Positions 2,704 through 54,895 of a DNA stretch of 64,000 nucleotides are shown piece by piece. The translations under genes and the position numbers were made by a program. This DNA comes from a virus. The DNA lies in IMG/VR virus record IMGVR_UViG_3300033978_000724, positions 1 through 64,000 of that record; one strand, written 5' to 3'. The notes under the pieces were generated by a model. The model worked only from the letters and a program-made list of their open reading frames with translations, ran no database searches and was not told where the DNA came from. The first letter of the stretch is position 1. Each line of letters opens with the position of its first letter.

Positions 2704-3300
2704 TTTCTGCCAGTTACTGACAACCTGTTTCATATAATTATTCCTATATGTCCATCCCCTTAAATGTTTCCATGCAGTAGGAGCGTTGGTATAAAAAGTT
2801 TGCTGGCAATTTAGCATACTCATCGCATCAGGTCGTTTCAAGCATCTAGCAGAAGTACCATTGATAATCATGTTGAAGTATGCCAGTTTTTCCGGACCAC
2901 CTAAATCCTTCGGGACTCTCAACCAGTAAGACTTATAGTATATTTCATAAACCTTTTTCTTCGACATAGTACATGGGTCCTTGTATCCGTATTCCCTAGC
3001 TCTACCAATCGTAATCCCCATGTATGTTCTGCCACCCCGGTCATGAGGATCGTTAGAACATTTATCGTCACCTTCCCACTTGATGATATGTGGCATAGCT
3101 CGGTTAAAGTCTGGATCATTAATACCCGTTTTGCTTGCGTCAACAGAGGTAGTAGAAGCAACAGCGACCGCTTTATTATGGCTAACATCCTTTGTTTCAC
3201 CTGGGGTTACAGAGCTGAATATAGAGTAAAAAATAATAAATTGTAAAGCTATTAAGATAAATTCTAGTCCGCAAAATTCTTTTTTCATAATTAATACCAT
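2701..3300 (-). CDS. GH108-type lysozyme (endolysin) with membrane anchor
   Basis: This is a predicted peptidoglycan-cleaving muramidase of the glycoside hydrolase 108 (ZliS) type. The diagnostic region is residues 72-105: HIIKWEGDD, then NDPHDRGGRTYMGIT. Glu76 is the expected catalytic acid of the family E-G-G motif, here E-G-D. Residues about 11-31 are a hydrophobic segment that is probably a signal-arrest or membrane anchor. The length (199) suits the family plus an anchor. It is the last gene of the - strand cluster and its start overlaps the end of the M23 peptidase gene by 10 nt. The later ATG at 3288 (MKKEF) is an equally good start. It probably acts in the periplasm at lysis. Confidence 0.88.
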   Translation of the reverse strand: MVLIMKKEFCGLEFILIALQFIIFYSIFSSVTPGETKDVSHNKAVAVASTTSVDASKTGINDPDFNRAMPHIIKWEGDDKCSNDPHDRGGRTYMGITIGRAREYGYKDPCTMSKKKVYEIYYKSYWLRVPKDLGGPEKLAYFNMIINGTSARCLKRPDAMSMLNCQQTFYTNAPTAWKHLRGWTYRNNYMKQVVSNWQK

Positions 3301-3866
3301 CCCGGTAAAACTGTCAGTGGATTAACATTCTGTCCATTAACTTTAATTCCTATGTGTAAATGAGGTCCCGTGCTTCGCCCTGTCGTTCCTACCTTGGCTA
3401 TCACCTCACCTTGCCTTACTTTTTGCCCTTCCTTCACCAAAATACCGCCTGGCATAATGTGACAATATTGCACTAAGTACTTCCCTGAATGAACCTCGAC
3501 CGTATTACCACAAGCACTAATAAATCCTGTGGTTTTTACTACTCCAGAAAAGATAGATAAAATTGGTGTACCTTCGGCTGCACTTATGTCATGTCCGTCG
3601 TGGAATTGTTTTTTACCAGTAACTGAGTTTATTCTCCATCCATAACTAGTAGATTCACGTCCAGGCAATTCCATTTTTGCCAAAGGTAATATTGCTTTTT
3701 CGTTGGTTCTTTTGGCTTGGTTAGTAGTTGATGGCTGAGATTGGTTAGTGTCACCTAATATCAAACTTGCATTTCCCCACAACTGACCAACTAATACCAG
3801 ACACGATACTCCGATAAGAAGTTCTAACTTAAACTCAGTCCGATCATTATTGATTAATTTTTTCAT
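3291..3866 (-). CDS. Membrane-anchored M23 peptidase
   Basis: This predicted zinc endopeptidase cuts peptidoglycan cross-bridges. Its M23 motifs are complete: H89xxxD93 (FHDGHDIS) and the H169-L-H171 of GPHLHIGIK. Residues about 13-38 form a hydrophobic anchor. The first 45 residues closely match those of the neighbouring enzyme at 3870-4619, so the anchor module was duplicated or shuffled. The start has AGGCAGGT 5 nt upstream. It lies between two other cell-wall enzymes, which supports a lysis role. The 191-residue length is normal for a single M23 domain plus anchor. Confidence 0.92.
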   Translation of the reverse strand: MKKLINNDRTEFKLELLIGVSCLVLVGQLWGNASLILGDTNQSQPSTTNQAKRTNEKAILPLAKMELPGRESTSYGWRINSVTGKKQFHDGHDISAAEGTPILSIFSGVVKTTGFISACGNTVEVHSGKYLVQYCHIMPGGILVKEGQKVRQGEVIAKVGTTGRSTGPHLHIGIKVNGQNVNPLTVLPGWY

Positions 3867-3869
3867 AGA

Positions 3870-4619
3870 TTACCTGCCTAAATCTTTAATTGAAATAATC
3901 GTGGTAGGAAATCTGAAACTTCTATCTTGCCTGTACGCTGGATCGGTGTAGATCGTTGCCATAAATTGTTCATGTCCTGATTGACTCACTAGGCAACCTT
4001 CAGACCAGTTCCTTACCGTTGTGCCAGCCCCCCGATGTTGATTCATGCCAAACAATCCATAATCAGGATGCCAACTTCTACCCTGGTCTTTTGTTCTCAT
4101 CACCGGAATACTGCCTACTTGTTGCAAAGCCCTCCTGCCTTTGTGATAACCTACAGCCCATGAGTTTAAGTATTGACCAGGATTCACGACGGGGTATCCT
4201 TTAGGATTAGGTGGATTATTCCAAGAGGGCTTCCCACCTTTGATTGTAGCAGGCGAATCATGCACTATTACCGGCTGATTATTTTTATAAGTAAGAAGTA
4301 ATCGGCGGTCGCTCCATTCGTTGATAGTTGATTCAAAGTTAGGATTAAAAACGTAAACTACATTTAATTCACCTGGTCCGGTCCTAATTTGAAAACCTTT
4401 CTTTTGCATCGCCGATACTAATATTGCGGGGTTTATCTTGCTGGAGACAGTTGTTTGTTGTGTCTCGCCAACTTGGCTGGCGGTTGTGGATTGAGATTGG
4501 TTAGCGTCACCTAATACCATTCCTTTATTTCCCCACAACTGCCCAGCCAAGAACAGACAAGATAATCCGATAAGGCATTCTAGTATGAATTCATATCGGT
4601 CATCGTTGAGCTGTTGCAT
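3870..4619 (-). CDS. Membrane-anchored L,D-transpeptidase-like protein
   Basis: The gene encodes 249 residues from the ATG at 4619, which has GGAGCGAT just upstream and aligns with the start of the M23 paralogue. A longer in-frame start at 4673 is less likely. The N-terminal 45 residues are the shared membrane anchor. The C-terminal half contains GYHKGRRAL, then DYGLFGMNQHRG, then NWSEGCLV. The His followed by S-x-G-C resembles the YkuD-type catalytic H and S-x-G-C motif, so a cysteine-dependent peptidoglycan transpeptidase or carboxypeptidase activity is likely. The exact family is uncertain. Its place beside a lysozyme and an M23 peptidase fits a lysis cassette. Confidence 0.8.
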   Translation of the reverse strand: MQQLNDDRYEFILECLIGLSCLFLAGQLWGNKGMVLGDANQSQSTTASQVGETQQTTVSSKINPAILVSAMQKKGFQIRTGPGELNVVYVFNPNFESTINEWSDRRLLLTYKNNQPVIVHDSPATIKGGKPSWNNPPNPKGYPVVNPGQYLNSWAVGYHKGRRALQQVGSIPVMRTKDQGRSWHPDYGLFGMNQHRGAGTTVRNWSEGCLVSQSGHEQFMATIYTDPAYRQDRSFRFPTTIISIKDLGR

Positions 4620-9487: not shown

Positions 9488-10606
9488 ATGAAATTCACTT
9501 GTTCGCAAGAAGACCTAAATGGTTGCTTATCTTTAGTTATTAAGGCTGTCCCTAGCCGGCCTAGTCATCCTGTTCTAGGGAATGTCCTGGTAAAAACATC
9601 TAAAGAACTTCAAATGGTCTGCATTACCGGCTTTGATTTAAGTTTGGGTATTCAGTCTGCTTTTAGTGCCGTAGTAGAAAAAGAAGGGACGTTAACTGTC
9701 CCTGCTAAATTGTTTATTGATATTATTTCTCGGATGGAAGGGAATTTATCTCTTGCTTTAGACTCTGAAGATGAAAGCCTGATCCACATAAAATCTGGAT
9801 CGGGTAAATATAACATCAGGGGAATAAGTGCCGATGAATTTCCTGAACTACCTGAGATAACAGGAGATCAAATTGAGTTGCCAGCCAAGGAATTAATAAA
9901 AGGATTAAAAGGGACTTTATTTTCTGCATCACCCGATGAGACTAAACAAGTTTTGACGGGTGTGCATATCGTTGTGACTCCAGATGAAATTGAGTTTGCT
10001 AGTACAGACGGCCATCGCCTAACACGGGTGCAAACACCTATTGAGGATGGTGCTGATCTTGCGATGACTATTCCTGCTAGGGCATTAAAAGAAGTAGAAA
10101 AGATGTTGTCGGCTAATTCTACCCTGGAGTCAGTGGCTATTAGATTTGATGATAGCCAAATCGTCTTTGAGATGGGAACTCAAAAGTTAACCAGTCGAAA
10201 ACTAGAGGGACAATACCCTGTTTATAATCAACTCATTCCCAATAAGTTCACCGGATCAATAACCCTAGATCGCAAGGCATTCTTGAGTAGTGCGGAGAGA
10301 ATCGGAGTATTAGCAGACCAACGGAATAATATTCTGAAATGTTCTATTAACCATGATTCTCAGTCTATTTCTTTATCTGTGGATGCCAAGGAAGTGGGCA
10401 ATGGGGAAGAATCGGTTGCTGTTCAATGTGACGGCGACCTCAAAGAAATAGCATTTAATATCAAGTACCTAACAGAGGGATTAAAGAGCCTTAATTGCTC
10501 TGAGGTACAAATCCAACTAAACACGGCGACAAGCCCTGTGGTGGTGAAACCATTAACCGGAGAAAAGATAATTTATTTGATTATGCCTGTACAACTTAGG
10601 AATTAA
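9488..10606 (+). CDS. dnaN: DNA polymerase sliding clamp, beta subunit
   Basis: This is a full-length (372-residue) bacterial-type clamp that rings DNA and tethers polymerase. The opening MKFTCSQEDLNGCLSLVIKAV, SHPVLGNVLV, the central LTGVHIVVTPDEIEFASTDGHRLTR and the terminal YLIMPVQLRN all fit DnaN domain order. Many phages rely on the host clamp, so owning a bacterial-type one is notable. Three other proteins in the window carry clamp-binding-like C-termini. The ATG has ACAAAGGACGAATCAAA upstream and a strong terminator follows. Confidence 0.96.
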   Translation: MKFTCSQEDLNGCLSLVIKAVPSRPSHPVLGNVLVKTSKELQMVCITGFDLSLGIQSAFSAVVEKEGTLTVPAKLFIDIISRMEGNLSLALDSEDESLIHIKSGSGKYNIRGISADEFPELPEITGDQIELPAKELIKGLKGTLFSASPDETKQVLTGVHIVVTPDEIEFASTDGHRLTRVQTPIEDGADLAMTIPARALKEVEKMLSANSTLESVAIRFDDSQIVFEMGTQKLTSRKLEGQYPVYNQLIPNKFTGSITLDRKAFLSSAERIGVLADQRNNILKCSINHDSQSISLSVDAKEVGNGEESVAVQCDGDLKEIAFNIKYLTEGLKSLNCSEVQIQLNTATSPVVVKPLTGEKIIYLIMPVQLRN

Positions 10607-21364: not shown

Positions 21365-24300
21365 TTATACTGATGTGATTACTTGTATTGTACTTGATGT
21401 GGCAACGTATTCTATCTTGCCTGTAGTGGTATTAAGCCACATTTGCCCTAATGTACCAGCAGACGCTACAGGGCGGGTGGCTGTAGTGAATCGGTTTAGG
21501 ACTAGTTGTCCATTGAGTGATTGAGCGAATAAAGCACCACCAACGCCAACACCTCCAGGAGTAACTATTGCTCCGGTTGTGGTTGAGGTACTTGCTACCG
21601 TGCCATTTACTCTTAATACGGCGGTGGTTGCTAGGTTTATGCCATCGCCTTTTAATAAAGTAAAGGTACGGTTATTGGCTATGAATAAAGCATTTGATTC
21701 TGTGGTGGAATTATAGCCAGCCTCAAATCCCAGAAAAATATTTGAATACCCCGTTGTGTTGAAGAGCCCCGCATTCGCTCCCATAAAGGAGTTGCTACTC
21801 CCCGTTGTGTTAGCATACCCCGCATTCACTCCCATAAAGGAGTTGCTACTCCCCGTTGTGTTGGATTGCCCCGCATTCACTCCCATAAAGGAGTTGCTAC
21901 TCCCCGTTGTGTTGGCATACCCCGCATTCACTCCCATAAAGGAGTTGCTACTCCCCGTTGTGTTGAAGCGCCCCGCATTCACTCCCATAAAGGAGTTGCT
22001 ACTCCCCGTTGTGTTGAAGCGCCCCGCACTCGCTCCCATAAAGGAGTTGTTACTCCCCGTTGTGTTGGATTGCCCCGCACTTACTCCCATAAAGGAGTTG
22101 CTATACCCCGTTGTGTTGGATTGCCCCGCACTCGCTCCCATAAAGGAGTTGCTATACCCCGTTGTGTTGGATTGCCCCGCACTTACTCCCATAAAGGAGC
22201 ATCTATTACTTAGGGATTGAATGCGGTAACCAGTCCCTAACCCCAGAAAAGTAGAACTAAATCGCCCTTTTATTCCGTTAATTCCAGATACTAGACTGCT
22301 ACTAGGATTTATCAATCTCACAGACAATGATACCGTGCCATTGAAATCCGTTGTAGGCAAAAGACTAAAAGTATTGCCTGCAGTAGAAACAGGCAAATCA
22401 ATAGTAGATGAATCCGTAATACTGGGGATAGAATTTCCTCCAAAACCTAATGTAATACTCCCTACCGTTCTATTGGTAATATTTAAAGCAATTCTGTAAA
22501 CTTCGTTTAAAACCAAACTACTAGCTAAATTGCCAGTGATAAAATCAACACCTGTAGTATGAGTAGCATTACCCCCACTTATAGTCCATCCCGTAGCCAC
22601 ATCCCAACTAGTAAATAATTCTGTAGCAGAAATAGATGATTCTACTATTGTGTCATTAATGATTACCCCGCCGGTTAGAGTCTTTTGCCCGGTGATAGTT
22701 TGGGTAGATACAATATCAACTACTCCTGTTATTTTAGTTGAATCAAGAGTAGGAATATCACTGGCTAATAACGACCCACTACCAGTAACTAGCCCCTTAG
22801 AATTATAAGTAGGTTTAGCACTAGACCCGGCTGTCACTATATTAGGTAGAGTAGCAGTAATAGCGGTAGTACCAGAACCTGTTACATCTCCACTGATAGT
22901 TATATTCTGGTTTCCAGTTATGTATGTACTGCCATCAAGCCCCCATACGCCCCCGGTTTGCTTGAGAAATCCTGATGTTCCTGTTACTCCACTAATATTT
23001 GTTAGGGTAGTATTCAATGGCTGATAACTAGACATAGCAGACGATGTTGTCAGGTAAGTATTAGCATCAAGCGTATAAGAACCGTCACCTACTTTCCTGA
23101 CAAAACCTTGTGTATCAGCTAAAGCAATAAAAGCAGTCAATTCATTGTTGGTATTTTGTTTTGAGGCTAAAGACGTATTTACTTCTGATTTGCTGAAGCT
23201 ATAAGTGCTTATAGCCGTATCTGTTTCGGCTTTTGTATAAGCATTTGTTATCCCATAGCCTGATACGGTGGTGGGTTGCCCTGTTAATTTAGACCAATCT
23301 ATACCACCTGGAATATCAGAAGCAAGTAACGCTGTACCGCCGGTTATTAATCCTTTGGCGTTATAGGTTATTTTAGGATTACTACCAGCCGTCACAATAT
23401 CAGACAATGTAACTGTTATAGCTGTTGTACCAGAGCCTGAAGCATCTCCACTCAGTGTAATAGTTTGATTGCCAGTCAAATAAGCCGAAGCATCCAAAGA
23501 CCAAACGCCGGCTGTCATCTTAGGTACTCCAGCCGTACCCACTAATCCACTAATACCAGTTAAATTAATATTTAGAGGTTGATAGCTAGATAGGGCAGAC
23601 TCTGTAGTCAGATAGGTATTAGAGTCAAGCGTATATGAACCATCACCCACTTTTCGGACAAATCCTTGTACATCTGGTAATGCGGAAAAGCCCGATAATT
23701 CATTATTGGCTATTTGATAGTTATTTGAGTCTATTCCCCATACACCTGCTGTTTTCCTAATAATGCCGTTGCCTGTCAAACCGGCAATATCTGTTAAATC
23801 AGAATCTAATGGCTGGAATGGTCCTGAGACGGTTCGCCATGTATTAGTTCCTGTTCTTTCTAAATATCCGGTAGTAGATAAAGACGCAATTGCGGTTAAA
23901 TCACCGTCCTGTATTTGATATGAATTAGTATCCATACCCCAAGCACCGCCAACTTTAACAAGAAAACCATCAATAGTTAGCCCACCGATACTGGTTAATC
24001 CACTATTTAATGGCTGGTAAGAAGCTGACGCTGATGTAGTGGTCAAATATGAACTACTGTCTATAGCATAGATTCCATCGCTTATCTTTTTGATAAAACC
24101 TGGAGTATCTGATAACGCAGATAATGCAGATAATTCATTGCTTTTAGCTTGGTAGTCATTTGATAAAACCACCGCACCTATTTTCCCATCTACAGAGAAA
24201 ACGCCATCTGTAGGTGTGGGTAATTCCACCCAATTAGATAGAGACGTAGCAGGAGTGGATTGTAATATAAATGTTTTATTGTTGTCAGTTCGTACCGCTA

Positions 24301-24520
24301 TATCCCCTTTCTGGGCGATTAACTCCAACATTTCTGACTCTGAATCCACCACAAAAGTATCTGTGATAGAAATATTTGGCAATTGAGATTGAGGTACTTT
24401 AGCAGATGAATCTAATGTTGCAACACCATTAGCACTACCTCTTTGAGTGAGTGGGATGTAATCACCCGTTACCCCGCCACCTGTGCTAGTGCCGGCATCA
24501 GGGAAAAAGTTTACCGCCAT
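21365..24520 (-). CDS. Tail fibre with tandem 17-residue repeats
   Basis: This 1,051-residue protein has three parts. Residues about 1-620 contain long repeats with QPLNxxLTxIxGL and GDxSYTLDxxTYL. A middle beta domain spans about 620-750. Residues about 760-930 hold nine copies of a 17-residue unit, NSFMGVNAGQSNTTGSS. The end resembles the stem before a chaperone tail. N-T-T-G/F-x-G-x-x-A-G repeats are known from trimeric bacterial adhesins and phage spikes. It is probably the main host-recognition fibre, and repeat number could change easily. Confidence 0.85.
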   Translation of the reverse strand: MAVNFFPDAGTSTGGGVTGDYIPLTQRGSANGVATLDSSAKVPQSQLPNISITDTFVVDSESEMLELIAQKGDIAVRTDNNKTFILQSTPATSLSNWVELPTPTDGVFSVDGKIGAVVLSNDYQAKSNELSALSALSDTPGFIKKISDGIYAIDSSSYLTTTSASASYQPLNSGLTSIGGLTIDGFLVKVGGAWGMDTNSYQIQDGDLTAIASLSTTGYLERTGTNTWRTVSGPFQPLDSDLTDIAGLTGNGIIRKTAGVWGIDSNNYQIANNELSGFSALPDVQGFVRKVGDGSYTLDSNTYLTTESALSSYQPLNINLTGISGLVGTAGVPKMTAGVWSLDASAYLTGNQTITLSGDASGSGTTAITVTLSDIVTAGSNPKITYNAKGLITGGTALLASDIPGGIDWSKLTGQPTTVSGYGITNAYTKAETDTAISTYSFSKSEVNTSLASKQNTNNELTAFIALADTQGFVRKVGDGSYTLDANTYLTTSSAMSSYQPLNTTLTNISGVTGTSGFLKQTGGVWGLDGSTYITGNQNITISGDVTGSGTTAITATLPNIVTAGSSAKPTYNSKGLVTGSGSLLASDIPTLDSTKITGVVDIVSTQTITGQKTLTGGVIINDTIVESSISATELFTSWDVATGWTISGGNATHTTGVDFITGNLASSLVLNEVYRIALNITNRTVGSITLGFGGNSIPSITDSSTIDLPVSTAGNTFSLLPTTDFNGTVSLSVRLINPSSSLVSGINGIKGRFSSTFLGLGTGYRIQSLSNRCSFMGVSAGQSNTTGYSNSFMGASAGQSNTTGYSNSFMGVSAGQSNTTGSNNSFMGASAGRFNTTGSSNSFMGVNAGRFNTTGSSNSFMGVNAGYANTTGSSNSFMGVNAGQSNTTGSSNSFMGVNAGYANTTGSSNSFMGANAGLFNTTGYSNIFLGFEAGYNSTTESNALFIANNRTFTLLKGDGINLATTAVLRVNGTVASTSTTTGAIVTPGGVGVGGALFAQSLNGQLVLNRFTTATRPVASAGTLGQMWLNTTTGKIEYVATSSTIQVITSV
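21749..22207 (-). repeat. Nine tandem 51-nt coding repeats
   Basis: The unit is 51 nt long, so copies stay in frame inside the fibre gene. Each contains CCCCGTTGTGTT and CCCATAAAGGAGTTG on the + strand. Copies differ mainly in the six bases after GTGTT, giving QSN, YAN, RFN or LFN. The near identity of neighbouring copies points to recent slippage or conversion. Confidence 0.93.
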
Positions 24521-26030: not shown

Positions 26031-26249
26031 ATGGAACAAGAAAAAAAAGAGACGATGTTATCCATGGAGCGTCAATTGAAATTGCGTGTCATGTGTGACG
26101 AGATTGATTCTGTCTCAGATATTCGTGTGGTCAAGCAAGGTTTTAAGGAATTAGCAGAATATGCCTTGACGATTCAACAGGTATTTGCTAACTGTCTTTC
26201 AGAAAACCCCGCTGATTTTGATTTTAGGAAGGTGGGTAAAAATGATTAA
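26031..26249 (+). CDS. Small hypothetical protein
   Basis: This 72-residue helical protein starts at an ATG after ACATACAAAGGACAAAT, the phage leader motif. It overlaps the methyltransferase gene by 8 nt, so it is translated with it. RVVKQGFKELAEYALTIQQVF is an amphipathic helix. The function is unknown; a methyltransferase accessory role is possible. Confidence 0.75.
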   Translation: MEQEKKETMLSMERQLKLRVMCDEIDSVSDIRVVKQGFKELAEYALTIQQVFANCLSENPADFDFRKVGKND

Positions 26250-27210
26250 ATTCATTGACCTATTTTCTGGTATAGGTGGGTTTCACCAAGGAATAAAACC
26301 CTATGGCGAATGTGTATTTGCTTGCGAAATAGATAAGCACGCCCAAGAGACTTATACGCATAATTTCCCGTCAACTTTTTTAGCGAATGACATCACAAAT
26401 ATTAGTCCCGATCAGATACCTGATCATGACCTGTTATGTGCCGGGTTCCCATGTCAGCCATTCTCTATTGCTGGACAGCGGAAAGGACTAGAAGACGAAA
26501 GGGGTTCTCTGATATTTAATATCATTCAGGTATTAGAGACTAAGAAGCCTCAAATGTTTTTATTAGAAAACGTCAAGAACTTAGTGAGTCATAATCACGG
26601 GTTGACGTTTCACTACATCAAAACCCAGTTAATGAATGCTGGGTATTACATCTCCTACCAGGTATTAAACACTGCTTATTATGGGAATATTCCTCAAAAT
26701 AGGGAGCGGGTTTATATCGTGGGATTCAGAGATAAAACTAAGTTCCTTAATTTCTCCTTCCCTTATCCTGTAGCGTTAACCGTCGGGGTAAGAGATTTGT
26801 TAGAGATGGATGTACCAGAAAGGTTTTATTGGCGGTCTGATCATACAAAAGATGTAGCTAAGGATGATCGGGTTTACCAGTGGCGGCGTAATTACATTCG
26901 AGCCAATAAATCTGGTTTATGTCCTACTCTCACCGCTAATACAGGAACAGGGGGTAATAACGTCCCTTTGGTTAGTGATAATCGTGGTGTAAGAAGGTTG
27001 ACAGATCGGGAGTGTCTAAGATTACAAGGTTTTCCTGATACTTTTGCTTTTCCAGATAATGTCTGCTTATCTCAACGATACAAACAGATTGGAAATAGTG
27101 TAAGTGTTCCCGTGGTGAGTTCTATTGTGGAGAAAATGCTATGGGCTTTTTACTCCAAAGAAGTTCCCACGATCAAAGATACTCAAGGCGTTCAATTAGG
27201 ATTGTTTTAG
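26242..27210 (+). CDS. DNA cytosine-5 methyltransferase
   Basis: This 322-residue enzyme starts at the ATG after AGGAAGGTGGGTAAAA. It has motif I DLFSGIGG, motif IV GFPCQPFSIAG with the catalytic Cys, motif VI ENVKNL, motif VIII QNRERVYIVG and motif X IGNSVSVPV. It probably methylates phage DNA against host restriction. No partner restriction enzyme is adjacent. It ends VQLGLF, the same pentapeptide that ends DNA polymerase II, so it probably binds the sliding clamp and methylates nascent DNA. Confidence 0.95.
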   Translation: MIKFIDLFSGIGGFHQGIKPYGECVFACEIDKHAQETYTHNFPSTFLANDITNISPDQIPDHDLLCAGFPCQPFSIAGQRKGLEDERGSLIFNIIQVLETKKPQMFLLENVKNLVSHNHGLTFHYIKTQLMNAGYYISYQVLNTAYYGNIPQNRERVYIVGFRDKTKFLNFSFPYPVALTVGVRDLLEMDVPERFYWRSDHTKDVAKDDRVYQWRRNYIRANKSGLCPTLTANTGTGGNNVPLVSDNRGVRRLTDRECLRLQGFPDTFAFPDNVCLSQRYKQIGNSVSVPVVSSIVEKMLWAFYSKEVPTIKDTQGVQLGLF

Positions 27211-28330: not shown

Positions 28331-28341
28331 TGTAGAGAAGT

Positions 28342-28974
28342 CTAAAACAGACTTAATTGTGTTTCTTTTGGCACTAATACTAATTTGTTTCTTGTTTTGT
28401 CGGGACTGTATTCGTGTAAAGATTCTTTTGTTTTTTCTCCATCGAGAAAATCTATAGTTGTGTAAGGATTGTAGGACTCGGCAATACTTTGCTGTGGAAA
28501 AAATAAATCAAACAAGCAAAATCCAAACCCATCAAACGACTCGTCTTTTAGCGTATATTTCCTTAGTTTATTTTTGGTGTTGTAACTAGCTAAATATTCT
28601 GCACTCTCTTTTTTACCCCCATACTGACAATACTTCAGTTTTTCAACAGGATATATTTTATTTCCCCACTGGTATTTTCGCTCATCCTTCACCCAAAACT
28701 CATAATCAGAGTGGTCAAAAAAGAAATCAGGAATAGGGACCAACCATATCTCGTAGTCATCAACAGAACAAAACTTCCCTGTTAACGCATCTATCCTTTT
28801 GTCCTTAGACCAACCTGATTCGTCATAAAAATAAATACTTGTCCTGGTCCTGTCGTAACCACCACGCCGGCGAGATGTTTTAGTCGTGTAATTATAGGAA
28901 GTCTCCCATCTGACCACATACCTCATTCCATCGTTTATCTGGATTAGTGGCTCTATTTGCTTTATAATACTCAT
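28342..28974 (-). CDS. Unknown protein with C-terminal clamp-binding motif
   Basis: This 210-residue protein is rich in Tyr, Asp and Lys, with no recognised domain. It starts at an ATG with GAGGTAAGACTGT upstream. It ends KETQLSLF, and QLSLF is the consensus beta-clamp-binding pentapeptide placed exactly at the C-terminus. With a clamp gene at 9488, this points to a replication- or repair-linked job. It could also block host clamp partners. The role beyond clamp binding is unknown. Confidence 0.8.
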   Translation of the reverse strand: MSIIKQIEPLIQINDGMRYVVRWETSYNYTTKTSRRRGGYDRTRTSIYFYDESGWSKDKRIDALTGKFCSVDDYEIWLVPIPDFFFDHSDYEFWVKDERKYQWGNKIYPVEKLKYCQYGGKKESAEYLASYNTKNKLRKYTLKDESFDGFGFCLFDLFFPQQSIAESYNPYTTIDFLDGEKTKESLHEYSPDKTRNKLVLVPKETQLSLF

Positions 28975-29058: not shown

Positions 29059-29349
29059 TTATCTATCTAAATAATACTCAGTCCGATCCACCCCTTTCTT
29101 GATCGGGCGATCAAATATCTTATTAAGTCCATTTAACTCTGTATTGACCAGCCAATAATTCATCTCTATTTGGTCAATTTCTTTCTCTACTTTTTCGGGT
29201 GTGGTTAGAATTGGGATGTGCTGGTCAAGGTCATCCAAGTCATTCTCTAATGAGTTAATCATCCCCTCAAGTTTGATTAATAATTCCTTGGCCGTAGCTA
29301 TTTCCTTTTTTCTTCTTTGGATGTATGGGATTAGTTTTGGGTTTATCAT
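29059..29349 (-). CDS. Coiled-coil hypothetical protein
   Basis: This 96-residue protein is almost entirely helical, with heptads through residues 14-75 (KELLIKLEGMINSLENDLDDL). Its start overlaps the stop of the upstream gene by 4 nt (ATGA). Probably a structural or adaptor partner of that upstream protein. No family is recognised. Confidence 0.75.
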   Translation of the reverse strand: MINPKLIPYIQRRKKEIATAKELLIKLEGMINSLENDLDDLDQHIPILTTPEKVEKEIDQIEMNYWLVNTELNGLNKIFDRPIKKGVDRTEYYLDR

Positions 29350-30260
29350 TCAATCAATCCATTTATTGCCTGTGCATCAACATCAGTCCGAGGGTGTTTA
29401 AAAATAATCTTAACGGTTTGATTCGCAAAGACACTCAAGCAATAGAAGAACGCCCTAAACATCTCAGGCGGGTTATAGGTGTAATTAGGTAGATAAGAAT
29501 TAGAGAAAACACAAGCTAATGTCAGGATAGCGTCTGTTATTTGACGTTTCGCTTTTATTTTCTCAGGTGAATAATATTCTCTTTCCCATTCATTTTGTCT
29601 TTCTTCTAGTGCGTCCGTGTACTCCGAGTCGCATTCATACCTAGCACATTCATCAAAATCATATTCAAACTTGCTTTTAACATCCTTTTCTAACTCCAAA
29701 AGTTTTTCTATGTTTTTGATGATAGTAGCCACAGATTCTGCTATAAAATCAAAGTCGCCGGTTAAGTCTGTTTCAGTCAGAATATCAATCATCCTGATAA
29801 TCGTAGGACCTATATTGTCAACCTGATTTAATGGTGGAGCAGATAGTTGGGTGTATTCAAACTTATCTATATCAGAGAATTGATGGTTATATCTAATCTT
29901 GACCAACCTTTCTTCAAACGTCTTTAGTGATGAAAAGTATTTACCATAAAGTTCTGGACTCCCTTCTGATGGTAATAACTCATAACCCCAAAGACAAATT
30001 AATCTAACAATATTACCCGCTAAACGGTGGTAAACCATTTGCCATTCATGATTCTTGTCTAGCCAGGCGGTAGGACTTTCATTTAGAGTTTCTTCTATTA
30101 ATAAAAAGTTCTCTGAGTATATCTGGTCAATTTCTTTTATATCAGACTCGATTTTCCTAGCAAGAGTCCATAGTTTACTCCAGTCTTCTTTTGACAGGCT
30201 TAACCCTTTTATTCCAGCGTAAACAGCGTGTCCAAAATATTTTATTTCAGGTGTTGACAT
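29346..30260 (-). CDS. Hypothetical helical protein
   Basis: This 304-residue, mainly helical protein starts at an ATG after ACATACAAAGGACAAAAG. Residues about 260-295 (AFFYCLSVFANQTVKIIF) are hydrophobic and could lie in a membrane or a helical core. It is coupled to the coiled-coil gene after it and divergent from the gene at 30350. The function is unknown. Confidence 0.76.
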   Translation of the reverse strand: MSTPEIKYFGHAVYAGIKGLSLSKEDWSKLWTLARKIESDIKEIDQIYSENFLLIEETLNESPTAWLDKNHEWQMVYHRLAGNIVRLICLWGYELLPSEGSPELYGKYFSSLKTFEERLVKIRYNHQFSDIDKFEYTQLSAPPLNQVDNIGPTIIRMIDILTETDLTGDFDFIAESVATIIKNIEKLLELEKDVKSKFEYDFDECARYECDSEYTDALEERQNEWEREYYSPEKIKAKRQITDAILTLACVFSNSYLPNYTYNPPEMFRAFFYCLSVFANQTVKIIFKHPRTDVDAQAINGLIE

Positions 30261-30349
30261 TTTTCTTTTGTCCTTTGTATGTCATTTTGTCTCTCTATTA
30301 TACCTTGAATCTGGTATCATGAGATTACACATAGACAAAGGAAAAACAA

Positions 30350-30922
30350 ATGTTGTTTATACCAGAAGAGTGGGAGCGTATCCGTTACTGCATAGGACCA
30401 GGTATCAACAGAGTCGTCACTATAGGGCAAATGATAGACGAAAGATACAGTGCTGATTTAAAGATAGGTTTTGCGTTGGATGGATTGTTATATAGTATTG
30501 AATCGGAAGACGAAACAGAAGACATGATCCGGCAGTATCCTGTTTATCAATACGGGAGAATAGCCACAAATATACCGGCTTTTGTGGTCCGTACGTCATA
30601 CGAAACCGTGTCTTACAGAATAGATTCTACTTCTTCTAGTGTCTCGTTGACGTTCACAGAAGACTACATAAAAGAATCTAATACTATTTGGAGCGAACTA
30701 AAAGAGTACGTGACAGAATTTAAGTTAGGCGATCCTAGTGACATTATTTCCACATTAACGGAAGAGGAAAAAATCAAAGAACAAGATGAAGACACAGGGT
30801 GGACGGCATGGGTAGGTGATTGGGTTATTTTCCCTCTTGTATATGACAGTTGTTATTTTTCAATTGGACACGCACCTAGAAATCCATGTGACAAAAAGAC
30901 TGGTCCTCTCGGTGACAACTAA
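30350..30922 (+). CDS. Hypothetical protein
   Basis: This 190-residue acidic protein starts at an ATG after AGACAAAGGAAAAACAA. SYRIDSTSSSVSLTFTEDYI suggests beta strands, and the C-terminus holds Trp/Gly and two Cys. It is a single-gene unit ended by a strong terminator. No family is recognised. Confidence 0.75.
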   Translation: MLFIPEEWERIRYCIGPGINRVVTIGQMIDERYSADLKIGFALDGLLYSIESEDETEDMIRQYPVYQYGRIATNIPAFVVRTSYETVSYRIDSTSSSVSLTFTEDYIKESNTIWSELKEYVTEFKLGDPSDIISTLTEEEKIKEQDEDTGWTAWVGDWVIFPLVYDSCYFSIGHAPRNPCDKKTGPLGDN

Positions 30923-30942
30923 TTCTTTCTATTGACAATTAT

Positions 30943-30989
30943 TAATTAATCTCACCCGGTCCTGAATCAGAACCGGGTGAGATTAATTA
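30943..30989. terminator. Bidirectional terminator
   Basis: AATTAATCTCACCCGGT pairs with ACCGGGTGAGATTAATT, a 17-bp stem around an 11-nt loop. It separates the convergent genes at 30350 and 30987. Confidence 0.9.
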
Positions 30990-31769
30990 TTCACCGATCA
31001 AACGCTGTCTTTCCTGTCCAAAGAGTAAAGTGATGACTTCATCGAGAGAATCAGCTTTGATATACTCACTCACAACAGGACGAGTCACAGCAGTAATTAA
31101 ATCATCACGACCTATTTTCTTGACCGATTCAACTACCCATTTCATTGACGGGACTTTTTGCCCAGTCTTTTTGGTAATAGAAGTGGTTAATTGTTCAGAA
31201 CTCAAGAACTTTTCTGTTTTATTAGTCTTTAGGCCTAACACCTCAGTCACGACCGTTTCAACTGTGACAATACTATCTGCATGACCACGCAACAATAAAA
31301 CAGTTTCTTTGCCGTGAATTTTTAGCATCGAATCATCTATTTCTTTGTTAGCCAACCTTAACTTTTCTAACTCAATTTGTTTATCCAATCGGATGTCTTC
31401 AATTGATTGAGCAACCTGAGGGTAAATTTGCTTAGTTAATTTCCAGTTCTTTTCACATTCAATAAAGTATTGACGTATTTGCCGTCCCTGGTCCGTTCTT
31501 GCCAAAAGACAAAACTGCTTAAGTCCATCACAAGACATTTTTATCTGAGTAATGCTACGACCCTTACCAGATGGATTTTTTACGGTGGTCCGTAAGAAGT
31601 CAACACCCTCAATTAAATTGTTTTGGACGCTAATAACGCCGTCCTGTTTTTTCTTGTACCCCGCTAATTGCCAGGCAATATCTAAATCAACTGGAAAGTT
31701 GACACCGCTATTCTCAGAAGTCAACCATTGAGATATTTGATCTTCTGTGTTATGATTAAAGTCCAACAT
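30987..31769 (-). CDS. AntA/AntB-type antirepressor
   Basis: This 260-residue protein has the Ant domain in residues about 20-115: VDLDIAWQLAGYKKK, LIEGVDFL and FCLLARTDQGRQIRQYFIECEK. Phage antirepressors of this kind release lytic genes by binding repressors. The C-terminal half is helical with a possible second DNA-binding part (SSEQLTTSITKKTGQKVPSM). Its presence with KilA-N, XRE and RHH genes suggests a lysis-lysogeny circuit. The start has only the weak upstream ACAAAGCAC. Confidence 0.88.
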   Translation of the reverse strand: MLDFNHNTEDQISQWLTSENSGVNFPVDLDIAWQLAGYKKKQDGVISVQNNLIEGVDFLRTTVKNPSGKGRSITQIKMSCDGLKQFCLLARTDQGRQIRQYFIECEKNWKLTKQIYPQVAQSIEDIRLDKQIELEKLRLANKEIDDSMLKIHGKETVLLLRGHADSIVTVETVVTEVLGLKTNKTEKFLSSEQLTTSITKKTGQKVPSMKWVVESVKKIGRDDLITAVTRPVVSEYIKADSLDEVITLLFGQERQRLIGE

Positions 31770-31797
31770 GGTTTTAAGTGCTTTGTTGTAAAACTAA

Positions 31798-53541: not shown

Positions 53542-54348
53542 ATGGAAGAAAATCAAATAGCCGACGATTCTAACTTAGAAGAAGCACCCGCCGAGCGTTC
53601 CCTGGAGGAACAATTAGAAGTTACTAAATTGACGATGATCAAGGAGAGAAATAGAGGTAAACAGTTAGAAAAGGAAAATAAAGAGTTAAAAAGACAGCAG
53701 GACGCACAGCAGAAGCAGTTAGCTCAATTACAACAACAGTTTGAACTGTTTTCTTTGGGTGGTGATAAACCAGTTACTCCTGATGTTGTTACTCCACAAG
53801 AGAAAAGATCAGAATCTCCTGATTTGGCTTATCAACAAGCGGCTAAACAAGTAGTATCAGGATTGCAAAGAGAGAATGAAGAACTAAAAGCGGCGGCCGC
53901 TAATGAGAGAAAAGAGAGAAAAAATGCTGAATTAAAAAAAGCTATTTTCACTGAATTTGTAAAAGCGGGCGGTATTTTACCGAGCGATCCTCAAGTTCTG
54001 AATATGCAAAACTCAGATGATAGCCCCTATGAGAACGTTGAATTAAAAATAATGTCTTCTGTTAAAGAGGAAAACGATGAGATATTCTTTGTGGATAAAA
54101 ACGGGAACATAGAAACCGACGCTCAAGGAGTGCCTTTGACTATGGCGGGGAAAATGCAACGCATCCAACAGTCATTATCTTACAGCTCCTGTTTTAAATC
54201 TGATAATAATAATATAGGAATGGGAACACCAACGGGAACTAAAAATAATTATACAAAAGGTGCTTCGGTTCGTTCTGGTAAAGACATGGCAACCGGAAAA
54301 GTAAAGTTAGAGGATATTTTAAACGGAAAAGCTGTGATTAGAGATTAA
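53542..54348 (+). CDS. Putative scaffolding protein
   Basis: This 268-residue protein is acidic, then coiled coil (residues 22-75, with Lys/Glu/Gln and leucines in heptads), with a second helix at 100-135. The C-terminus is Gly/Asn/Lys-rich. Scaffolds have this composition and help coat proteins assemble. It lies between the divergent portal gene and the small terminase gene. The assignment is from composition and position. Confidence 0.75.
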   Translation: MEENQIADDSNLEEAPAERSLEEQLEVTKLTMIKERNRGKQLEKENKELKRQQDAQQKQLAQLQQQFELFSLGGDKPVTPDVVTPQEKRSESPDLAYQQAAKQVVSGLQRENEELKAAAANERKERKNAELKKAIFTEFVKAGGILPSDPQVLNMQNSDDSPYENVELKIMSSVKEENDEIFFVDKNGNIETDAQGVPLTMAGKMQRIQQSLSYSSCFKSDNNNIGMGTPTGTKNNYTKGASVRSGKDMATGKVKLEDILNGKAVIRD

Positions 54349-54385: not shown

Positions 54386-54895
54386 GTGGCTAAAGACCGC
54401 ATTAGAAAATGTGCGATATTACATTTCAAAAACCCGAAAATCTGGCATTACCAAAAGTTAGCCAGTCTTTTTGGTGTATCTATCGCCACTATTTCCCGTT
54501 GGGCTAATAGCAAAGAATGGCAGTCAATGTCAGAGGCTTTTCAGTTCGTTGATATTCATTCTCAGGATGTAGTCGATCAGGTCTGGCAGGATAAACACCT
54601 ACAGGAATTACAGGAGTGGCAAGATAAACAGAAAACTATTGCCAACTTTCAGACAGGTATAGTGATCCAGTTATGCCAGTTAACAGCAGACCTAATCAAA
54701 GAAGTGAAGGACGAAGAGGTGGCAGGACTTAGTAAATTAAAACAGATTGGTAATTTTAATTCCCTTGCATCGGCGATAGATAAACTCCAGAACAGAAGCA
54801 CAGAAGCGATGACTCAGGTATTAAGTATTGACAAGATATTAGAGGCGATAGATAACCCGGAACCTAAACAATTAGAGTTGGATTTTGGCGGGTAA
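54386..54895 (+). CDS. Putative terminase small subunit with clamp motif
   Basis: This 169-residue protein starts at a GTG after AAGGGGAAATA. The N-terminal 45 residues (YQKLASLFGVSIATISRWANS) are a helix-turn-helix like those of DNA-recognising small terminases. A long central helical region follows. It ends KQLELDFGG. QLELDF fits the hexapeptide form of the sliding-clamp motif, as in DinB or Hda. In phage T4 the clamp touches the packaging machine, so a link here is plausible. The large subunit gene is 4 kb away. Confidence 0.72.
   Translation: MAKDRIRKCAILHFKNPKIWHYQKLASLFGVSIATISRWANSKEWQSMSEAFQFVDIHSQDVVDQVWQDKHLQELQEWQDKQKTIANFQTGIVIQLCQLTADLIKEVKDEEVAGLSKLKQIGNFNSLASAIDKLQNRSTEAMTQVLSIDKILEAIDNPEPKQLELDFGG

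Follow-up and report, generated by a model that had tools for sequence, protein, structure and literature searches.

A 210-residue orphan protein of a probable cyanophage ends in a consensus clamp-binding motif and may be a client of the DnaN sliding clamp

The window analyzed here is a stretch of 64,000 nucleotides from the IMG/VR virus record IMGVR_UViG_3300033978_000724 (positions 1 to 64,000), a part of a record of 97,031 bases. The open reading frame of interest lies on the minus strand (Table 1), starts with ATG and encodes a protein of 210 residues, P0001, whose C-terminal residues ...VLVPKETQLSLF are followed directly by the stop codon. A GAGG lies 9 bases 5' of the ATG, as judged by eye, and the plus strand of the same interval has stops throughout. 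This confirms the preliminary description of this DNA, in which a 210-residue protein had been reported to end exactly in QLSLF.

Table 1. Features of the virus record discussed in the text; coordinates refer to the window unless marked as record positions.
Feature	Position	Strand	Basis and remarks
P0001, orphan protein, 210 aa	28342..28974	minus	ORF translation; no family match; one 99% copy (L001)
QLSLF codons, C-terminal clamp-binding motif of P0001	28345..28359	minus	stop at 28342-28344; consensus QL[S/D]LF (PMC3716654, excerpt), QLxLF (PMC11139829, excerpt)
C5-cytosine DNA methyltransferase, exact C-terminal QLGLF	26242..27210	plus	PF00145, E 8e-88
QLGLF codons, C-terminus of the methyltransferase	27193..27207	plus	translation
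DnaN (β sliding clamp), 372 aa, likely docking partner	9488..10606	plus	Pfam, AF2, Foldseek
HTH DNA-binding protein (terminase-small-like, weak)	54386..54895	plus	ends PKQLELDFGG; hexapeptide clamp motif QLELDF
Protein of 96 aa, no known family	29059..29349	minus	upstream of P0001; retained beside it in the sole relative, L001
Protein of 304 aa, no known family	29346..30260	minus	overlaps the 96-aa gene; absent from L001, where the stretch is replaced
D12 methyltransferase, N-terminal MQLTLDL	record 88097-88951		outside the window
Protein with QIALF close to its end	record 89383-90183		outside the window

By its sequence, the tail is a consensus bacterial clamp-binding motif (CBM), as described in the excerpts of PMC3716654 and PMC11139829 used here; the latter defines the canonical pattern as Q-aliphatic-x-[L/M]-[F/L], to which QLSLF conforms, and ranks QLxLF as the motif class of highest affinity. 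The motif occupies the extreme C-terminus, and 64% of the residues in the stretch preceding it are polar, charged, glycine or proline. From this sequence we infer that P0001 binds the DnaN clamp via QLSLF. A single-sequence AF2 model of the protein had a pLDDT of 37.7 and is unusable for judging the exposure of the motif.

Family searches assign no recognized activity to the body of P0001 (residues 1 to about 155). Pfam, NCBIfam and PADLOC yielded no matches, PHROGs a single sub-threshold match (phrog_28799, E 0.085), and the PDB sequence search one chance-level match (E 0.045) and no relevant relative. In annotated phage and plasmid collections, the former containing Nodularia phages and Synechococcus phage S-H1, P0001 had no match at E<=1; bacterial genome contigs contained no relative and 386 cyanobacterial genomes gave only noise (best E 0.008). 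Membership in a known family was therefore rejected, as nothing significant was found in any of the five family and structure resources, and the statement in the preliminary description that the protein resembles nothing known is borne out. Its sole relative is a copy in IMG/VR with 99% identity, on a contig of 10,471 bases (L001), in which the QLSLF tail is kept; the scan used requires exact short peptides, which is partly why a single near-identical contig was all that turned up. Thus P0001 is a new, unclassified protein and, by motif, a putative clamp client. The phrog_28799 lead proved uninformative when followed into the 386 cyanobacterial genomes, giving no signal there or in 14 controls. 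Kinship with other tagged proteins was rejected by blastp comparison to 14 of them (best E 0.85), as was a role as a DNA mimic, given the pI of 6.75 and a net charge of about 0.

Comparison with L001 also gives some indication of the history of the locus. The two copies of the P0001 gene differ at 2 of 633 bases, both differences being non-synonymous and none synonymous, so that conservation of the tail over time cannot be inferred from this pair. Most neighboring genes have diverged by 10 to 16% at synonymous sites (MTase 0.163, ORF96 0.162, ORF139 0.096, ORF161 0.145, MCP 0.142), with a low value of 0.032 for ORF200. Positions 28333-28782 are 100% identical to L001 and the flanks mostly 92-99%; further upstream of P0001, window positions 29381-31788 and L001 positions 3005-4176 hold different genes between flanking DNA of 91-97% identity. 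P0001 sits in a mosaic accessory region, and its segment looks to have been exchanged recently between related phages. Both swapped cassettes carry an antirepressor-like protein, recognized by PHROGs in the window and by eye in L001. On the minus strand at 21365-24520, the window further encodes a protein of 1051 residues in which a unit of about 17 residues (SNSFMGxxAGxxNTTG, by eye) recurs many times in near-identical form; these repeats align with those of L001 in several registers.

A likely docking partner is encoded by the phage itself. The predicted protein matches the N-terminal, central and C-terminal DNA_pol3_beta domains of Pfam, and all of its 55 sequence matches in the PDB are named clamps or clamp fusions. 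Its AF2 model has a mean pLDDT of 93.5 and, in Foldseek, superimposes on solved bacterial clamps, peptide complexes among them, with a TM-score of about 0.9. Since the genome collection places its closest relatives among the cyanobacteria (identity of up to 53%), the host of the virus is very probably a cyanobacterium. Over 18 positions of the peptide pocket, the phage clamp is identical at all 18 to four of the six cyanobacterial DnaN proteins compared (L007, L008, L010, L020; the frame-broken L051 was left out of the count), and each of the other two differs at one position; 9 of 18 are identical in Escherichia coli. The pocket positions are for the most part those named in the excerpts of PMC3716654 and PMC11139829, and five others complete the set. 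Because the phage pocket matches the host type, the tail would be expected to show no preference for either clamp: phage and host DnaN should be indistinguishable to QLSLF, which should bind both. Beside its own clamp, the record carries a replication/primase-like protein (phrog_4913) and a RuvC-like resolvase. No DNA polymerase was recognized among the proteins searched, which are a part of the ORFs of a possibly incomplete record, and the phage may run its own clamp together with the polymerase of the host.

P0001 is not the only protein of this record with such a tail. The C5 methyltransferase, 1.1 kb away, ends exactly in QLGLF, which is the motif of E. coli Pol II (PMC3716654, excerpt). 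Beyond these two exact QLxLF ends, three proteins of the record bear terminal variants, namely the HTH protein, the D12 methyltransferase and the protein with QIALF (Table 1). The HTH protein, encoded upstream of the terminase region, contains a hexapeptide closely matching LQLELDF, the peptide recovered most often when phage display was used to select binders of the β-clamp (PMC11139829, excerpt). It may be a packaging or regulatory factor that is tethered to the clamp.

To evaluate these ends against chance, we counted mechanically called, uncurated ORFs of at least 60 residues. Exact QLxLF ends occur in 2 of the 126 ORFs of the 97-kb record, P0001 and the C5 methyltransferase, compared to a mean of 0.0027 after shuffling residues within proteins. 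As none of 3000 shuffles reached two, the QLxLF ends in this record are non-random. The published canonical motif lies at most 16 residues from an end in 5 of the 126 ORFs (shuffle mean 0.88), a number reached in 3 of 3000 shuffles.

We then extended the comparison to 18 clamp-encoding phage records with 1353 ORFs, comprising 15 virus records, this one included, and three named phages. The strict pattern Q[LIM]x[LM]F occurs 11 times within 10 residues of a C-terminus, 4 times within 10 residues of an N-terminus and 13 times elsewhere. At the internal density of the pattern, 0.68 C-terminal occurrences would be expected (p 2e-10; this record contributes 3 of the 11), and within the 15 clamp-encoding virus records terminal canonical motifs are found in 7 of 20 methyltransferase ORFs versus 20 of 1029 other ORFs (Fisher p 2e-7; 2 of the 7 from this record), both p-values being too optimistic since records share ancestry (e.g. 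G017 and G018). Further tagged proteins match Mom, PAPS-reductase, N6/N4 methyltransferase, DUF5131 and phage antirepressor families, and Nodularia phage kac65v151 has an annotated DNA polymerase A with QLDMF near its N-terminus.

Six phages in which tblastn found no DnaN in the stretches searched (641 ORFs) served for comparison. Terminal strict pentapeptides were about as frequent there (5/641) as in the clamp-encoding set (15/1353; p 0.63, no significant difference), and the excess of terminal hexapeptides in the latter (12/1353 versus 1/641) was weak (p 0.07). A strict tie of terminal motifs to owning a clamp was therefore rejected, and the similar rates provide no demonstrated link to the phage's own clamp. 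Four of the five motifs in the comparison set belong to Planktothrix phage PaV-LD (L189/L190), where QLDLF is N-terminal on a PAPS reductase, QLCLF is N-terminal on an N6-methyltransferase (by annotation) and two are C-terminal on hypothetical proteins. A phage of this kind, lacking DnaN, would have to use the clamp of its host, and the tag alone thus does not indicate a phage clamp. Among cyanobacterial chromosomal methyltransferases, chosen by a simple motif rule of which a few picks may be wrong (e.g. L143), tags were found at 5 of 30 C5 loci with a loose pattern and at 0 of 30 D12 loci, which is rarer than in phages and led us to reject a general rule of tagged cyanobacterial methyltransferases. 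No paper on phage methyltransferases with clamp tags came up in full-text literature searches, a weak negative.

The motif and phage-encoded DnaN are both known already (PMC3716654, PMC11139829, PMC6293099; excerpts). The QLxLF class of P0001 is shared by E. coli Pol II (QLGLF), Pol V UmuC (QLNLF) and Hda, with that of Pol II also being C-terminal (PMC3716654, PMC11139829; excerpts). In contrast to these bacterial clients, P0001 belongs to no family and lacks polymerase, AAA+ and repair domains. Two toxins, SocB of Caulobacter and RipA of Streptococcus pneumoniae, target the hydrophobic DnaN pocket (PMC9690074, PMC12795458; excerpts), where P0001 is predicted to dock; SocB places a usual clamp motif in the pocket (PMC9690074, excerpt). 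Both are bacterial toxin-antitoxin proteins, unlike P0001. Twort gp168 and G1 gp240, from phages of Staphylococcus, bind the DnaN clamp (PMC3594737), the former at the DNA channel and not the pocket (PMC11139829, excerpt). A model for the QLGLF methyltransferase is Dnmt1, which is tethered to the sliding clamp PCNA and modifies new DNA (PMC9690074, excerpt); this clamp and enzyme are eukaryotic, and P0001 is no recognized methyltransferase. Cyanophages with a bacterial-type clamp gene include Nodularia phages, Synechococcus phage S-H1 and Aphanizomenon phage CL131 (for CL131, PMC6293099, excerpt).

We consider it about an even bet that P0001 is a client of the clamp and is thereby kept on replicating DNA, probably that of the phage, where it would act on this DNA or together with the tagged enzymes. 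Its C-terminal QLSLF, carried on a polar tail, would dock in the peptide pocket of DnaN and so hold the protein on DNA that is being replicated or has just been replicated. As the phage-made clamp has a host-like pocket, the tail should bind either clamp, with phage DNA as the usual cargo during infection, and P0001 would most likely act on or protect new phage DNA, like the neighboring clamp-tagged methyltransferase. The tagged Mom and PAPS-reductase-like proteins and DNA polymerase A of other phages fit such DNA work; some tagged proteins are antirepressor-like or have no assigned family.

The preliminary description had proposed that P0001 may take over the host clamp. In this reading, it would contend with the host's polymerase and repair proteins for the DnaN pocket and halt host replication, as does SocB of Caulobacter. 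Early takeover proteins are often small orphans of mosaic accessory regions, and P0001 is a small orphan in such a region. The high affinity of its motif class (PMC11139829, excerpt) would suit a competitor, SocB is an example of inhibition through a usual clamp motif (PMC9690074, excerpt), and two phage proteins, Twort gp168 and G1 gp240, are known to bind the DnaN of the host and to arrest replication (PMC3594737). The clamp-binding part of the proposal is well supported by the consensus tail and by the strong enrichment of such tails at the termini of proteins in phages of this type. The takeover of the host clamp is not supported in that form: the phage has a DnaN of its own with an identical, host-type pocket, which a pocket blocker would also block, and the nearest protein that ends in a similar tail methylates DNA by its family and is no inhibitor. 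We therefore regard takeover as rather improbable. Because the virus carries its own clamp and the same kind of peptide on DNA-methylating enzymes, P0001 is more likely to work at the virus's own site of replication than merely to poison the clamp of the host.

Replication-coupled late transcription, with P0001 or the HTH protein as a coactivator that would link RNA polymerase to the sliding clamp, is an analogy to T4, where gp33 and gp55 contact gp45 via C-terminal motifs (PMC9690074, excerpt). The QLELDFGG end of the HTH protein and the QISLFN end of an antirepressor-like protein from another clamp-encoding phage are compatible with it, yet PHROGs, Pfam and NCBIfam reveal no sigma-like or RNA-polymerase-binding domain in P0001, and we judge this reading to be unlikely. 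Equally hard to favor is a tail of no importance, gained by chance or drift on a protein unrelated to replication: with P0001 known from two near-identical copies, selection on the tail is unmeasurable, but neither the shuffles, which never gave two QLxLF ends, nor the strong terminal enrichment in other clamp-encoding phages would be expected from it.

If P0001 is a clamp client, a phage gene that could not be classified gains a place of action, and terminal clamp peptides would offer an inexpensive criterion by which orphan genes of phages could be placed at the replication fork. More tentatively, and with considerable doubt, we propose a cyanophage "tool belt", in which a phage clamp would be served by unrelated proteins with terminal clamp peptides (methyltransferases, Mom-like and PAPS-reductase-like proteins, DNA polymerase A, DNA-binding proteins and orphans like P0001), which would couple the modification and processing of phage DNA to the passage of the fork. 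Terminal clamp peptides on DNA-modifying enzymes of phages would imply that viral DNA receives its marks at the fork, ahead of any attack by host restriction, in a bacterial parallel to Dnmt1 with PCNA. A hypothetical protein of MK605242 (L182, record 53591-54181) ends in QLDLF and has, by eye, the look of an AlkB-type dioxygenase.
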